Shown here one piece after another: positions 11,629 to 21,053 of a stretch of 21,687 nucleotides of DNA. Source of the DNA: a virus; the IMG/VR virus record IMGVR_UViG_3300001750_000032, positions 1 to 21,687 of that record; one strand, given 5' to 3'. Every line of letters starts with the position of its first letter. Within the stretch, counting starts at the first letter, position 1. Both the position numbers and the translations under genes were made by a program. The notes under the pieces were generated by a model that saw only the letters and a list, made by a program, of their open reading frames with translations, did no database searches and was not told the origin of the DNA.

Positions 11629-12291
11629 ATGAGAAAAAATAAATATATCGAACCAAACACAAAAATAAACAGATGGACAGTTAAAAAGCGTATTGCAAAA
11701 CTTAATAAAAGCAATCAAGCTATGTATCTTTGCGAATGCGAATGCGGTACTATAAAACAAGTTGCCGGTTTTCGTCTTAGGAACGGATATACTAAATCCT
11801 GTGGTTGCCTCGCCAGAGAACTCAGTTCCGAAAGGTTCACGACACATGGTCTTACAAAACATCCTCTTTTCTCCATCTGGTGTTCTATGATGAATAGATG
11901 TTACAGTAGGAAAAACAAAGCATACTGTGACTATGGCGGTAGAGGAATTTATGTTTGCAATAGATGGCATGATGTTTCCTTATTCATAAAAGATAATTCC
12001 CATTTAGCAAAAAAAGGTCTCTCCGTAGACAGAGTAGACAACGATAAAGGATATTTCCCTTCAAACACTCGTTTTGTAACCAGAAAAACACAAGCATTAA
12101 ATAGACGCTCAAATGTAAACATAACGTATAATGGAGTCACAAAACCTATTTTCGAATGGGCAGATGATCTAAACATTAAACCAAAAACCCTATGGAGAAG
12201 AATTAGACAATTAAATTGGTCTATTGAAAAAGCCATGTTAACTCCAGTTAAAAAATATCGTTATTCTACAATCATCGCTGAGCAGCCATAA
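11629..12291 (+). CDS. HNH homing-type endonuclease, free-standing
   Basis: The product has 220 residues. A Cys-rich N-terminal part (C35, C37, C39, then C58 and C60) resembles a zinc-binding module. Then come HPLFSIWCSMMNRCY (78-92), DYGGRGIYVCNRWHD (101-115), LSVDRVDNDKGYFPSNTRFV (131-150) and TQALNRR. This is a well-known phage HNH/AP2-associated endonuclease family. The C-terminal part (about 164-205) looks like the DNA-binding repeat ITYNGVTKPIFEWADDL plus a helix-turn-helix. The gene is opposite to all neighbouring structural genes, has its own promoter, and overlaps the end of the convergent 241-aa gene by 20 bases. Its GC content is higher than its neighbours (about 37-48% in the lines I counted). 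It probably inserted by homing; its target is unknown. Confidence 0.85.
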   Translation: MRKNKYIEPNTKINRWTVKKRIAKLNKSNQAMYLCECECGTIKQVAGFRLRNGYTKSCGCLARELSSERFTTHGLTKHPLFSIWCSMMNRCYSRKNKAYCDYGGRGIYVCNRWHDVSLFIKDNSHLAKKGLSVDRVDNDKGYFPSNTRFVTRKTQALNRRSNVNITYNGVTKPIFEWADDLNIKPKTLWRRIRQLNWSIEKAMLTPVKKYRYSTIIAEQP

Positions 12292-16263: not shown

Positions 16264-16488
16264 TTAAATATTATTCCTTAATTCTAAAATTAAATCAATA
16301 CCATAAAGTATTCCAACTGCCTTTGCTGTTTCTTCAATAGTTCCATGACCACCTTGAAGAGTATTTCCATTTTCTAAGCCCTTTGAAATTAAAGATCTTG
16401 CCTCTCTTAATTCAAATAAGATCTTTTTAGTAATTTCATTTTCTTTCCATTCATTAAATTCTTCCTTTGTTATACTGTTGTTCGACAT
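16264..16488 (-). CDS. Small protein between portal and co-chaperonin
   Basis: The product has 74 residues, probably all helical: EEFNEWKENEITKKILFELR, then a Gly-rich turn (GNTLQGGHGT) and a second helix (ETAKAVGILYGIDLILEL). Short proteins of this pattern, with an E-W-x-x-x-x-x-T-x-x start, often follow the portal gene in phages and have no proven role. It overlaps the portal gene by 35 bases, with its AGAAGG site inside portal codons, so translation is probably coupled to portal translation. Confidence 0.6.
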   Translation of the reverse strand: MSNNSITKEEFNEWKENEITKKILFELREARSLISKGLENGNTLQGGHGTIEETAKAVGILYGIDLILELRNNI

Positions 16489-18412
16489 TATTCACCTTCT
16501 GACTATCTCTAACTTGCTGTTGATTGTTTATACCTTGATGTTGTTTACTTTTAAGATTATTTAAATCTTGTAAAAAAGTTTTATATTCTTCTAATTGAGT
16601 TCCTTCTTCCTCTGCCTCTGCTTTAGCAATTTGTAATATTGCATCAGCCCTTAACTTTTCTATTTCTGCAAATATTTTCCTCCTATTAAAGTCTGCTTCC
16701 ATTTGTTCAAGTTCTAAACGTTGTTTCTCAATACCTATTTTTTCCAATTCTGGATTAGGTGGTTGAGGTTTCCTTTGATCAGGTGGTAATAGTAAATTTT
16801 CAGGTGCTTTAATAGCTTTTAAATATTGAGCTGTTATAGCATCTTCATTTAACCCTTCTCTACCAGATATTCTCATAACTGATTCAGCCTTGCCAACTCT
16901 CTGAACATCTAATGAAAACATTGGTTCAGCAGAAGGTATTATATTAAAATCTTTACCATTAAAATCTTCAACTTTAAATTGTTCATCAAGTACTGCGACA
17001 TATTGTGTATTATCTACATACTTAGCATTAAGTTCAGCTATTAATTTAAATTCTTCTGTCATAGCTCTATATATTCTTTTATATATACCGCTAAAAACCT
17101 TTAATCCTTGCTCAATCAAAGCTGTTACAGTTGCTGCTGAAACATTCTCACCAGGTTTATTACCAGCAATAGCATCCTGTACAGAAGATATATCTTTTCC
17201 AGCAGAGATTAGCATTCCAAGTAGAGAAAATAATACTTGAGAAGGTTCTTTTACTGGAAGAGGAAGAATTCCTGATCTTAAATCCTGACTCATTACATTT
17301 GTTGTTTTCCATTCACCAGGCTTAAATTTAACCTCACCACGATTAAGATTTAGACCTCTTGCCATAAAACCACCACCAAGATTAGCAAGTGTACCAGCAT
17401 CTAAGAGTTGATTGATAGACGTATTAATACTGCTATTAATAGGACATAACAAAGTACCAAAAGCAATGTCATAAAAACCTCCGTCAGGGTTTGGGAAAAA
17501 AGGATATTTAACAAAATACTGTAAAGGTTCAATTCTTATTGGTTTTCCATTTTTAAATTTAATACTGTTTTCATCATATCTTGCTACAATCCTAAAAACC
17601 TGTTTTGATTCATGATGAACAGTTACTATATATGGCTCTTTATAACCATCTTCATCAAGATCAAGCCATCTATGCTGTTCTAAAAATAAATGAGGTGAAT
17701 CATTTTGAACATCTATATTATCATTTATATCTTCATTGTTATTATCTAAATATTTTCCATCACCACCTATTTCAATATCAAGCCATAAATCAGCATTTGA
17801 CATTTCAATAGCGTAATTTTCATACTGATAGAACTTATGAGTTATTCTTTTTGCTGATTTAATACATTCAGTGTTATTATTAATAACAACATCATCGAAT
17901 GTAAGAAACTTAGAAGATGGTTTTTCAAGCAAACTATCATAATATATTTTTTTAAAACAAGTACCTGTTATTGGTAAAACATGAAGCATTTTATCCATAC
18001 CATCAAGCCAACCATCCATTTCTTCAAGTAATTGAAAATCCATATATTTACAAATTCTTGCAGCACGAGCTTCTTTTTCTCCTGATTCATCCTTACCTAT
18101 AACCTTAGCATTTACTATTTGTTCATCTGGTATAAGTTCAGGGTAGGCTCGACTAGCAAATTGAATACCAGCTACAGTAATAAGAGGATATTTAACATTA
18201 GCTGCTCCCTCCCATGGAAAACTTTTAGCTTCAGGAGTTTGCTTTGCAAGTTTCATTGCTTCTTTATTTATGGTTTCAATATTTCTTCTTGATTCTACAT
18301 CTATTTCATACTCTTCGACAACCTTTAAACCGATTTCATCAAGTAAGGATTGCTCCAAGTTTACTGCAATATTCTCACTCTCTATATAACCTTCAAGTCT
18401 TTTAATATCCAC
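16454..18412 (-). CDS. Portal protein, P22-like
   Basis: The product has 652 residues, within the usual 600-750 of P22-type portals. Family-like elements are SRRNIETINKEAMKLAKQ and FPWEGAANVKYPLI (about 41-78), RAARICKYMDFQLLEEMDGW (about 115-135), GTCFKKIYYD (about 152-161) and, near residue 420, SSVQDAIAGNKPGENVSAAT. The C-terminal 110 residues are a long Glu/Gln/Lys/Ala helix, like the portal barrel. It makes the ring at one capsid vertex through which DNA is packaged and ejected, and docks the terminase. The start is a GTG at 18412, behind AAGGGA and overlapping the terminase stop by 11 bases. An internal ATG start would remove the first conserved segment. Order terminase-portal is standard. 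Confidence 0.85.
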   Translation of the reverse strand: MDIKRLEGYIESENIAVNLEQSLLDEIGLKVVEEYEIDVESRRNIETINKEAMKLAKQTPEAKSFPWEGAANVKYPLITVAGIQFASRAYPELIPDEQIVNAKVIGKDESGEKEARAARICKYMDFQLLEEMDGWLDGMDKMLHVLPITGTCFKKIYYDSLLEKPSSKFLTFDDVVINNNTECIKSAKRITHKFYQYENYAIEMSNADLWLDIEIGGDGKYLDNNNEDINDNIDVQNDSPHLFLEQHRWLDLDEDGYKEPYIVTVHHESKQVFRIVARYDENSIKFKNGKPIRIEPLQYFVKYPFFPNPDGGFYDIAFGTLLCPINSSINTSINQLLDAGTLANLGGGFMARGLNLNRGEVKFKPGEWKTTNVMSQDLRSGILPLPVKEPSQVLFSLLGMLISAGKDISSVQDAIAGNKPGENVSAATVTALIEQGLKVFSGIYKRIYRAMTEEFKLIAELNAKYVDNTQYVAVLDEQFKVEDFNGKDFNIIPSAEPMFSLDVQRVGKAESVMRISGREGLNEDAITAQYLKAIKAPENLLLPPDQRKPQPPNPELEKIGIEKQRLELEQMEADFNRRKIFAEIEKLRADAILQIAKAEAEEEGTQLEEYKTFLQDLNNLKSKQHQGINNQQQVRDSQKVNNVEQQYNKGRI

Positions 18413-21053
18413 CTATTGAATCCCTTCCATTATTAGAAAAAAAACTATTTTTTTGATCCTCTAAGCCATCTAATAAATCCAAGTCAGAATAATGAGTGTC
18501 TAATAGCATGATCCTATACAAGTTTTCACACATATGGTCATCCTTGTCAATTGGCTTCTGAGTTTCCTTATCATAAACATAACCTTCTATTTCAAAAATA
18601 GTCCTAACTAAATCATCAAAAATAAATAAAGAAGGAGTGTTGTTTGCTCCTTTTAAATGATTCTTAATTTCAAGTATTCCTGCTGTTTTATCTTTAGTAG
18701 CTGTTTCAAGATAAAACCCATACTGAGCAAGGACTAAGCTTACTTTTTCAAACACAGTATTTGGGTTATTACTATCACCTTTAGCAAGAGGATCAATAAT
18801 AATTCTACCTACTCTATAGTTGTTTTGTTTTATACATCTGACTATCTGTTCTCCTACCCATTTTCCATCTCCATGTTCCCATATTTCATTAATAAGATAT
18901 TTTATACCAGTAGGGCTAACTGCACAAAAAAGGATAGCTTGTTCTGTTCTTGGATGAATATCTATGGCTATATCTACAATCCAATCCAATGGTATTTGAA
19001 ACCTTTCAACAAGGTGGATTTTTCTGTCATATTGTGGATAAACAAGACCATCCATATATGCAGGTACACCATTTAATCTTATCTTTCTTTCTTCTGGAGT
19101 TAAAGCTTTTGAAAACTGATCAAGACCTTCCTTAGTAATACCAAAGCCTACATTTTCAAAACTTTCAACATGAACATTAAAAACACTCATATCAGGACGA
19201 CCATTTTCATCAACAGCTTTAATAACCTCTCTATCTACCCATGCTTCCTTTAATAGAGTCATACAAAAAAGTTCTCTACCACATCTATCAACAAGACCAC
19301 GAGCATTTGCAATTCTTATCGGTCTTTTAGGTGGTTCATCATAAACGATTAAATCACCAGACCAACCTTCATGTAAACCAGAATCCTGAAGATTACTCAT
19401 TACCTCAATAGAGCTTCCAGTCTCTTCATCAGTCCATAAATACTCTATCCCATCATTATTTTTCTTCCTGGTAACTTTTCTATTCGCAGGCATCCACTTA
19501 AAGAGTTCAGGAATAATAACAGATTTGATTTGTTTGTTCCAATCCTGTCCTATATATCTTACCTTCCTTGGTAAATTATGAGGGAAATAGAGAGATTCTT
19601 TATTCCAAGGATAAAAGCCAAGCATAGTTGATATGGCAAGTATCGTGCCAAGTGTTGTATTGTGATGAACTATACCGCCAGCGAAATAATTCTTATAAAA
19701 AGGAACTTCAAAGTCATAAACCTCTTGCAATGCGTCAATAGGTGTGATACTATTAATAGTATGATAACCAATTACATTAAAAGGAGAGGATAAATCACAT
19801 GAAAAAGGAACTTTGGAACGTAGACGAGATAAGAAATTTGATAGAAAACGAACAAAAAACTTTAAAGAAGGTAGCTTTATCTTACGGTTGTTGTACCGCA
19901 ACGATGCAAGTTTACTGCAAAGAGAAGAATATAAAGCCCAAAATGGGTGTTCCTGCGAAAGTCTACCCGGTTGAGCAAATACGGGATTGGATAGAGAACC
20001 AAGGGAAGACGCATAAATGGATTGCTGAGCAAATAGGTTGTTCAAACCAACATATCTCAAGAATTTGCAAAAAGAATAAGATAAAGACTCATAGATCGGG
20101 GCCGAGAAGAGGGGAAGGACATCCTGGTTGGAAGGGTGGTCGGCATCAACGTAAGGGTTATTGGTATGTTTATAATGCTGATCATCCAAATTGTACAAAA
20201 AATCGTTATGTTGCTGAACATCGTCTTGTAATGGAGAAAAAGATCGGTCGTTATCTAACAAGGAAGGAAGTTGTTCACCATCTTGACGGTAATCGTGTAA
20301 ATAATCATCCAGACAACCTTCATATTTATCCTTCAAATGGTGTTCATTTGTGTGAAGGATTCCATGGTCGTTTACCAAACTACAGCCTTGAAGATTGTCA
20401 AAAGATGCTTGAAGCTGCTCAACGTAGAGCCAACCATGCGAAGTTAAAACGCGGTGATGATCAGCAAGGCCAAGAGTCTCACCGTTAGACATATTTAAAT
20501 TGTAACATTTGTGCAGACCCTTCTTTTTAATAGGTGGGTTTGCATAAGTAACTACTTTTTTATTTCCATCCCAAGCATATACTTCGAATGGTTTACTTTT
20601 TTCATACAATTCACCAATAGTTTTTTTACCTTGTGTAGTCTCTATAAGTGTATTAACCGTTGCGCATTTCCCAGATCTGTTACCCCCCGTGAAACAGAAC
20701 ACTTTATACATTTCTTTTTTCCAACCATCAAGAATCAAAGCCTGTTTTGGATTAGGAGTATCAAAAAACTCAATCTTATTAGCATTCTTATACTCAGCCA
20801 TCCTTGTCATTAATTCAATTTCTTTTAGAGCTATTCTTTTATACTCTTCTTCAGTGGCCACATTACTTTTTTTACCAATAAGCTTATTAGTAACATTCTT
20901 TTTTATCTTAGCATTCCCATTCTTTACTTTAAGGTTATATTTATCATCATTATGAATAAACTTATTCTTACCAGGTGAAGGTGGATAAATAGATTTCTTT
21001 TGATTAGCTATAGCCTTCAACCTTTCAATATCAACATTATCTTTAACCTTCAT
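18402..21053 (-). CDS. terL: Terminase large subunit precursor containing an intein
   Basis: The precursor has 883 residues, of which 130-465 are an intein; the spliced protein would be 547 residues, normal for the family. The packaging ATPase motifs are a Walker A formed only after splicing (GGNRSGK, then TTLGT), Walker B DLIVYDEPP at 567-575 and a coupling-type segment after it. The nuclease domain shows acidic residues at D698 (AIDIHPRTEQA), D754 (IIIDPLAKGD) and the DKDDHMCENLYRIM segment at 836-849. It cuts concatemeric DNA and drives it through the portal. The start is an ATG behind AAGGA that overlaps the upstream gene by 11 bases. Without splicing the P-loop is broken, so DNA packaging depends on the intein. 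An antisense HNH gene lies wholly within its coding sequence. Confidence 0.9.
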   Translation of the reverse strand: MKVKDNVDIERLKAIANQKKSIYPPSPGKNKFIHNDDKYNLKVKNGNAKIKKNVTNKLIGKKSNVATEEEYKRIALKEIELMTRMAEYKNANKIEFFDTPNPKQALILDGWKKEMYKVFCFTGGNRSGKCATVNTLIETTQGKKTIGELYEKSKPFEVYAWDGNKKVVTYANPPIKKKGLHKCYNLNMSNGETLGLADHHRVLTSHGWLYVEQLQASFDNLQGCSLVNDHGILHTNEHHLKDKYEGCLDDYLHDYRQDGEQLPSLLDNDRSFSPLQDDVQQHNDFLYNLDDQHYKHTNNPYVDADHPSNQDVLPLFSAPIYESLSYSFCKFLRYVGLNNLFAQQSIYASSLGSLSNPVFAQPGRLSQEHPFWALYSSLCSKLASLRYNNRKIKLPSLKFFVRFLSNFLSRLRSKVPFSCDLSSPFNVIGYHTINSITPIDALQEVYDFEVPFYKNYFAGGIVHHNTTLGTILAISTMLGFYPWNKESLYFPHNLPRKVRYIGQDWNKQIKSVIIPELFKWMPANRKVTRKKNNDGIEYLWTDEETGSSIEVMSNLQDSGLHEGWSGDLIVYDEPPKRPIRIANARGLVDRCGRELFCMTLLKEAWVDREVIKAVDENGRPDMSVFNVHVESFENVGFGITKEGLDQFSKALTPEERKIRLNGVPAYMDGLVYPQYDRKIHLVERFQIPLDWIVDIAIDIHPRTEQAILFCAVSPTGIKYLINEIWEHGDGKWVGEQIVRCIKQNNYRVGRIIIDPLAKGDSNNPNTVFEKVSLVLAQYGFYLETATKDKTAGILEIKNHLKGANNTPSLFIFDDLVRTIFEIEGYVYDKETQKPIDKDDHMCENLYRIMLLDTHYSDLDLLDGLEDQKNSFFSNNGRDSIGGY
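19725..19753 (+). promoter_or_regulatory. Possible extended -10 promoter for the nested HNH gene
   Basis: TTGCAA at 19725-19730 and TACTAT at 19748-19753 are 17 bases apart, with TGA at 19745-19747 giving an extended -10 (TGATACTAT). Each hexamer matches four of six consensus bases. It points toward the HNH gene and lies within the antisense of the intein C-terminal splicing region. Transcription would start near 19760. Confidence 0.4.
19747..19762. repeat. 16-base perfect palindrome over the -10 region of the nested HNH gene
   Basis: ATACTATTAATAGTAT is a perfect inverted repeat that overlaps the putative -10 element and start point, where a repressor operator would sit. On the other strand it encodes intein residues around HTINSI. 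A chance palindrome of this length is not rare in 21 kb of AT-rich DNA, so this is a suggestion only. Confidence 0.3.
19781..19789 (+). promoter_or_regulatory. Ribosome-binding site of the nested HNH gene
   Basis: AAGGAGAGG lies nine bases before the ATG at 19799. It decides the start of the antisense HNH gene and is itself inside the intein coding sequence of the other strand. Confidence 0.6.
19799..20488 (+). CDS. HNH endonuclease encoded antisense inside the terminase intein
   Basis: The product has 229 residues. Two similar helix-turn-helix units lie at about residues 8-48 (VDEIRNLIENEQKTLKKVAL, then a short recognition helix) and 57-97 (VEQIRDWIENQGKTHKWIAE), an internal duplication likely to bind DNA. 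After a GEGHPGWKGG linker comes an HNH_3-like domain: AEHRLVMEKKIGRYLTRKE (139-157), VVHHLDGNRVNNHPDNLH (158-175) and a final H183, with H160/H161, N169 and N173 as the likely core. The gene lies fully inside the intein, on the opposite strand, with a good ribosome site. GC is about 40% by hand count, against about 30% outside. The last about 25 codons run antisense to intein block B. It is the likely homing endonuclease of this intein; activity is inferred. Confidence 0.88.
   Translation: MKKELWNVDEIRNLIENEQKTLKKVALSYGCCTATMQVYCKEKNIKPKMGVPAKVYPVEQIRDWIENQGKTHKWIAEQIGCSNQHISRICKKNKIKTHRSGPRRGEGHPGWKGGRHQRKGYWYVYNADHPNCTKNRYVAEHRLVMEKKIGRYLTRKEVVHHLDGNRVNNHPDNLHIYPSNGVHLCEGFHGRLPNYSLEDCQKMLEAAQRRANHAKLKRGDDQQGQESHR

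Follow-up and report, generated by a model that had tools for sequence, protein, structure and literature searches.

An HNH endonuclease gene on the strand opposite a terminase intein in phages and prophages

Hint domains splice, and HNH endonucleases home. In split inteins, as was reportedly described by Dassa et al. in 2009, a free-standing endonuclease gene may lie between the two halves. Here we describe a viral stretch of 21,687 bases, the whole of IMG/VR record IMGVR_UViG_3300001750_000032 (hereafter the window), in which the terL gene is interrupted by an intein and an HNH endonuclease gene occupies the opposite strand of that intein. Inteins have been characterized in mycobacteriophage TerL, where they lie in the ATPase domain, spliced in a reporter and, in two cases, cut intein-less terL (Kelley et al. 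2016, PMC5050341). In-frame endonucleases are the known pattern for TerL inteins: those that tested active in that study are LAGLIDADG domains in frame with the intein, including at a P-loop site. A second related arrangement is the ShiLan domain, an HNH hidden within an insertion in a phage methylase, in another frame of the same strand; it is without splicing domains, and the insert is thought to remain in the host protein (Arsenault, Gosselin and Gogarten 2025, PMC11855218). We found that the ShiLan methylase region is a distant match to the HNH family of the window.

For practical purposes the two-strand architecture of the window locus is certain. Both frames are intact and separately selected, they overlap in one fixed phase, the HNH gene has its own start signals, and the element shows presence/absence polymorphism and transfer. 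We consider it very likely that this is a mobile intein of class-1 type in which a distinct gene, overlapping it on the other strand, encodes the homing endonuclease, and that the HNH drives its own homing together with that of the intein.

Two overlapping genes at the terL locus

The intein sits within one continuous frame, with the features below (all coordinates are those of the window; pLDDT is the predicted local distance difference test score of AlphaFold2).

18402–21053, minus strand: terL precursor open reading frame, 883 residues, stop-free through the intein (phrog_2, 1.9e-8)
19659–20666, minus strand: intein, TerL residues 130–465 (336 residues), between Lys and Thr of Walker A, GGNRSGK^C...HHN^TT
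20409–20666, minus strand: N-terminal part of the Hint domain, blocks A and B, intein residues 1–86 (border at about residue 88 in the L248 alignment; pLDDT 88–98 over residues 1–90)
19659–19769, minus strand: C-terminal part of the Hint domain, blocks F and G, intein residues 300–336 (TIGR01443; pLDDT 93–97; L248 alignment)

These intein borders are exactly those of the preliminary description, which had been made from the letters of the window alone. The intein starts with CATVNT and ends with VHHN^TT, interrupting the Walker A motif GGNRSGK^TT at a point that is uninterrupted in intein-less TerL relatives (GSNRIGKTT in L003, GGNRLGKTT in L004). Cys1, the block B His, the penultimate His, the terminal Asn and the +1 Thr are present, and profile matches were found to TIGR01445 (intein_Nterm), TIGR01443 (intein_Cterm) and Pfam Intein_splicing, the last at 2e-8 and slightly below the gathering score. 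An AlphaFold2 model computed from an alignment of 24 family inteins folded the intein ends as a Hint domain (pLDDT 88–98 for residues 1–90 and 93–97 for about 301–336) and left the sense-strand centre disordered (35–55 over most of it). Foldseek with this model retrieved the Mtu RecA, Ssp DnaB and Npu DnaE inteins at E-values of about 5e-6 to 1e-5. The locus therefore has what defines an intein, namely an in-frame insertion at a conserved site with intein-less homologues, the block motifs and the Hint fold. Its 336 residues set it apart from mini-inteins, which have no endonuclease and about 130–150 residues, and its single 883-residue open reading frame from split inteins, in which host gene and intein are divided between two. 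Nor is it a conventional large intein with an in-frame endonuclease domain: the HNH is on the opposite strand, and the centre read in sense is a disordered stretch that is not under selection as a protein. A tblastn search of a phage collection with the window intein gave no match, and sequence searches of the PDB with the intein-TerL and HNH proteins returned nothing useful for either. A closely similar intein is found on contig L001 (IMGVR_UViG_3300033388_004240), which opens within its C-terminal part at positions 1–108, the upstream sequence being absent.

The opposite strand carries the following features, in which HTH stands for helix-turn-helix.

19799–20488, plus strand: putative homing endonuclease gene of HNH type, antisense, 229 residues from an ATG start (PF13392 (HNH_3), 5e-8, above cut-off; phrog_20891, 2.5e-25; synonymous-shuffle test)
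19859–20002, plus strand: first HTH unit, HNH residues 21–68 (HTH_17, 3e-5; model helices 22–28 and 33–42)
19973–20077, plus strand: second HTH unit, HNH residues 59–93 (HTH_38 and others, weak; model helices 58–67, 72–79 and 83–92)
20219–20329, plus strand: HNH_3 catalytic domain, HNH residues 141–177 (H161, N169, N173, N180 and H183 invariant in a 25-sequence alignment)
19784–19789, plus strand: Shine-Dalgarno sequence AAGGAG, 9 nt upstream of the HNH ATG (enriched in the family)
19725–19753, plus strand: probable HNH promoter TTGCAA-N17-TACTAT with a TG-extended -10 (8/12; below the threshold of a generic scan)

The complete 229-residue gene with two HTH units and a ribosome site that had been proposed from the sequence is thus borne out by the PF13392 and phrog_20891 matches and by AAGGAG, and the comparison of its product with HNH profiles, on which the proposal could have failed, gave a match above cut-off. 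AlphaFold2 modelled the protein at a mean pLDDT of 86.7, with the two HTH units, an HNH core and a C-terminal helix. The gene has a G+C content of 40%, against 32% for the window. Its position differs in one respect from that first described: the intein centre is indeed the reverse complement of the HNH gene, but the gene is not confined between the splicing blocks. Its 3' end falls at intein residue 60, and block B lies inside the overlap, antisense to the last ~25 HNH codons, so that the HNH is not simply an insert between splicing blocks. We also observed that the window HNH and that of L101 have an extra N-terminal HTH (HNH residues 1–57) that is absent from most members of their group, perhaps a domain gain altering target recognition.

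Read in the TerL phase, the antisense of the HNH gene has 0 stops in 228 codons, where 9.5 are expected on average when its synonymous codons are shuffled and 11.0 with the codon usage of the phage; other genes of the window phage have 6–20 stops per 229 codons in the same antisense phase. None of 20,000 shuffles was stop-free, which excludes a chance antisense frame. The related idea that an assembly artefact fused a phage HNH gene to terL could appeal to the window being a single metagenome contig and to L001 starting inside a related intein. Together, chance and artefact deserve next to no probability given the shuffles, the recurrence of the design in 107 distinct sequences and its presence in independent isolate genomes (see below), which by itself already refutes them.

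Signals for separate expression of the HNH were assessed across its relatives. A Shine-Dalgarno sequence precedes a start upstream of the HTH in 66 of the 85 representatives with a complete N-terminus, and such sequences accompany 55% of upstream ATGs versus 17% of internal ATGs. Sigma-70-like sites scoring at least 9/12 occur in the 150 nt upstream of the HNH in 45/89 representatives (51%), compared with 3–10% in control extein and HNH regions and 24% when the same stretch is read on the other strand; at a score of at least 10/12, there are 21 upstream regions versus 0–4 in controls. L154 provides a near-consensus example, TTGACATCCAATAAAATTGGATGATATAAT. This enrichment is good evidence, although not conclusive, because the conserved intein residues QEVYDFEV dictate part of the sequence. 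The possible promoter proposed for the window (TTGCAATGCGTCAATAGGTGTGATACTAT) fares less well, scoring only 8/12; it does align with that of L060 (TTGACAGGGGTCAATAGGAATGATACTCT), and promoter-like sites recur at that place in relatives. At the level of the family, these signals support the suggestion that the HNH may be expressed separately.

A family of TerL inteins with antisense HNH genes

Used as a single query sequence, the window HNH retrieved nothing from IMG/VR, and an alignment of HNHs, among them those of the phages Koroua and PHS3 (see below), was needed. With it we found 80 loci. In all 80, the antisense frame of the same phase is free of stops and encodes Hint motifs within the Walker A of a TerL. 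Following further scans of viral and genome contigs, 229 HNH-bearing loci were classified, 170 in inteins and 59 without an intein (mostly free-standing HNHs). Every one of the 170 lies antisense in a TerL Walker-A intein and in a single phase, in which HNH codon positions 1, 2 and 3 face intein codon positions 1, 3 and 2, with 0 stops in 30,540 codons; these loci are not independent, and comprise 107 distinct HNHs at <95% identity. The 59 HNHs without an intein have 119 stops in 3,607 codons of the corresponding frame (3.3%), and the other two antisense frames are similar between the two sets (3.7 vs 3.6% and 5.2 vs 4.4%).

Among the 167 loci with both Hint ends, 166 have the HN terminus, 166 a Ser, Thr or Cys at +1 and 160 a Cys start, and at least four of the exceptions to the Cys start are partial profile matches. 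Insertions are at G^[ST]GK[ST] and GK^T of the P-loop, with Terminase_6 and Terminase_3 among the extein families. When the search was started from the intein instead, an antisense HNH was found in 97 of 104 loci, five of the others being cut by contig ends or incomplete and two having no HNH. PF13392 was matched by 25/25 representatives, and 86/89 keep an HNH frame that covers the profile. On the HNH tree the insertion-site label clusters, and some free-standing HNHs fall among the antisense ones with weak support. A 'KxGD' motif shared by the HNHs was considered as a sign of common overlap ancestry and dropped, as the His-His codons of block B produce it in this phase.

The rates of change at the three codon positions indicate which protein is being preserved. 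Between pairs of relatives, the Hint N-terminal region outside the HNH changes at 0.33/0.25/0.59 for intein codon positions 1/2/3, position 3 being fastest, and the centre at 0.24/0.48/0.21, where the fastest is intein position 2, the HNH wobble position. Fast change at the HNH wobble implies purifying selection on the HNH protein; in the centre it is the HNH protein that is conserved, and the intein frame mainly needs to remain open. A Koroua-type group has longer HNHs whose tail spans the Hint N-terminal region (most of blocks A–B), and there change is slow at all three positions (0.22/0.23/0.29), as constraint from both strands would produce. The corresponding region in the group of the window gives 0.42/0.32/0.57, with the intein frame dominant.

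These results bear on two other ways of reading the sense frame. The sense frame is open throughout, as it is in inteins with in-frame endonucleases, which would suit a conventional intein whose sense centre is a real, novel endonuclease domain, the HNH frame being a by-product. The sense centre, however, is disordered in AlphaFold2 and fastest at its own codon position 2, the opposite of a selected protein, whereas the antisense product matches HNH families (to 2.5e-25) and has free-standing homologues. Homologous inteins conserve the antisense HNH frame and no sense-strand central domain, which decides in its favour the refutation test set in the preliminary description. We regard the conventional reading as almost certainly wrong. 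It is equally hard to credit that the insert is removed at the RNA level as an intron, with the open sense frame incidental. HNH genes are common in group I introns, but the Rfam scan of the window gave no match at the gathering threshold, including to a group I ribozyme, the Hint motifs and fold are complete, the sense frame is open in 170/170 copies, and the HNH gene runs opposite to the terL transcript.

The best database relatives of the window HNH include those of Pectobacterium phage Koroua and its sisters and of Pseudoalteromonas phage PHS3. In Koroua, an unannotated 232-residue HNH lies antisense inside a 754-residue 'hypothetical protein' adjoining the portal, which we identify as TerL with an intein at GFG^C...HHN^TGKS. 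The HNH of PHS3 is annotated, and what is missed as a single open reading frame is the overlapping TerL, a 708-residue frame with the intein at GAG^C...HHN^SGKS. The two HNHs align end to end at 49% identity. The two-strand design is present in isolate genomes, namely the Pectobacterium phages, PHS3, Enterobacter cloacae DSM 26481 and E. coli MEI003. RefSeq marks the MEI003 TerL (L338, 901–3188) as incomplete with its N-terminus missing, although the full TerL-intein frame is intact; the call arises because the overlapping antisense HNH was annotated in place of the intein, and it is probably a systematic annotation error. The C-extein of this TerL also carries a tandem duplication, with VVVNSSNPPVKDRVNSMNAMFCNANGERR occurring twice.

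The preliminary description had an HNH gene invading a mini-intein in reverse orientation with both readings kept. Antisense nesting and the retention of both frames stand, and what they belong to is an old and widespread family rather than a single recent invasion. We think it probable that these loci form a large, old class in which a splicing domain and an endonuclease overlap on opposite strands in a fixed phase, the endonuclease having its own promoter. In the Koroua group the overlap would extend through the catalytic Hint blocks, with all codon positions held by both strands, and across the class the endonuclease would be expressed independently of the late, essential host gene, the two homing jointly.

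Mobility and a proposed homing mechanism

Occupied and empty alleles are both found in E. coli. MEI003 alone has the unit, and 779 other genomes match only part of the query; among the matches listed, the terL flank alone was matched, as in an intein-less terL. MEI003 is occupied and ET729 empty at the same codon, with no scar. The MEI003 intein and that of the Enterobacter cloacae DSM 26481 prophage are 92% identical in DNA, versus 84.7% for intein and extein jointly, so that the extein is clearly less similar. Six independent pairs have HNHs that are 68–75% identical and C-exteins that are only 26–34% identical. Lower divergence of unit than of extein in close pairs was also considered as a sign of transfer and dropped, since the unit is slowed by dual coding as well. 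Similar units in unrelated TerLs, together with the empty sites, support the earlier suggestion that intein and HNH may home as one unit.

Some copies lack part of the element. L248 (998–2200, plus strand) has a 144-residue mini-intein at the Lys^Thr TerL site in which a ~30-residue linker replaces the HNH segment; aligning related mini-inteins had been proposed as a way to place the insertion borders, and this alignment puts them near intein residues 88 and 300. L248 is useful as an ancestor-like or HNH-loss control. In other copies the intein frame is intact and the HNH has suffered a deletion or an interruption, among them L024 (HTH part missing) and L025, L038 (HNH interrupted), and L269/L270 (part of the centre deleted), and these fit the decay stage of a homing cycle. 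None of the 170 intein-borne copies has the intein frame broken over the HNH. That the HNH decays and the intein frame does not is the asymmetry expected of an essential host gene with a dispensable endonuclease.

We propose that reading of the terL strand would give a precursor from which the Hint domain formed by the intein ends excises the 336-residue intein, disordered centre included, restoring Walker A. Reading of the opposite strand from its own start would give an HTH-HTH-HNH protein from the same centre. This protein, with its HTH units recognizing the Walker A codons, would probably bind an intein-less terL there and cut or nick it in a mixed infection, and repair from the occupied allele would then copy intein and HNH together. 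Transcribed from its own strand inside a late gene, the HNH would not depend on the timing of TerL and would stay separate from the precursor. Splicing, DNA cleavage, homing and expression timing are inferences, and we regard the homing mechanism as likely.

Several results weigh against this proposal. The preliminary description counted all splicing residues as present; the blocks A, B, F and G are there, but the usual Thr of block B is Ala (ADHH) in the window intein and likewise in its closest relatives. A generic promoter scan of the window gave no plus-strand promoter, its own candidate being weak. A search of PDB folds with the HNH model gave no match below 1e-3. The divergence of the unit is confounded by dual coding in close pairs, and is a clean measure only in pairs with unrelated exteins. 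A different account would make the HNH a resident regulator or a fossil, translated now or in the past, that no longer drives homing, perhaps a repressor or a source of antisense RNA, with the architecture inherited vertically along with terL. The decayed copies (L038, L024 and L269/L270) would suit it, as would the essential role of TerL, which makes the intein hard to lose. We consider it unlikely, because 86/89 representatives keep a profile-covering HNH frame, the HNH wobble evolves fastest under purifying selection on the protein, the 68–75% identical units lie within TerLs of only 26–34% identity, and intein-less alleles are common in E. coli (779/780 matching genomes without a full unit match). 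Homing fits the intein-less alleles, the mini-intein at the Lys^Thr site, the decayed HNHs and the similar units in unrelated TerLs.

Almost all genes of the window are encoded by the minus strand, among them those for portal, head-closure and head proteins.

16454–18412, minus strand: portal gene, next after terL

A second, different HNH endonuclease is found at 11629–12291 on the plus strand (phrog_374, 2e-60) and also runs antisense to the genes of the head operon. Because stops interrupt the minus strand at this place, it resembles an ordinary free-standing insertion.

Significance and comparison with known systems

No antisense endonuclease in an intein came to light in the literature covered; outside that coverage lie most preprints and subscription papers, including bioRxiv 2025.01.02.630785 (Gosselin, Arsenault and Gogarten) on 'non-canonical' actinobacteriophage inteins, whose title and citation in PMC11855218 point to unusual intein and endonuclease arrangements with overlapping frames and which is the likeliest place for a precedent. 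An antisense endonuclease inside an intein is probably a new architecture. It departs from the rule that the endonuclease of an intein is a domain of the intein, and couples two selfish functions stably on one stretch of DNA with their expression uncoupled. With more than 100 naturally occurring cases of long and deep antisense overlap, each with one frame required by an essential gene, the family is a rare system in which to study how overlapping genes evolve. It also exposes a blind spot of annotation, as pipelines keep one gene and discard or break the other (TerL in MEI003 and PHS3, the HNH in Koroua), and a widespread kind of mobile element in phages and prophages has been missed by standard gene annotation. 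The isolates and the E. coli prophage make the mechanism directly testable.

The window HNH shares its HNH_3 family, and often its HTH units, with free-standing phage endonucleases (Squillium gp42, phiH, IME-SA4, Thibault). Unlike it, these are separate genes on DNA of their own, whose antisense frame is as a set interrupted by stops. As in split inteins, the endonuclease would be a separate protein from within the intein locus; unlike split inteins, where host gene and intein are in two parts, host and intein here form one open frame. With ShiLan the locus shares an HNH gene within an insertion that is open in the frame of the host gene, but the window HNH is surrounded by a Hint intein and on the opposite strand, and so is not of the ShiLan type. 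The closest likeness in position is to the mycobacteriophage TerL inteins: the Lys^Thr P-loop site of the window is their TerL1-a, and they also use a neighbouring P-loop site. Where the endonucleases of that study that tested active are in-frame LAGLIDADG domains, however, that of the window intein is of HNH type, and its gene occupies the opposite strand and has start signals of its own.

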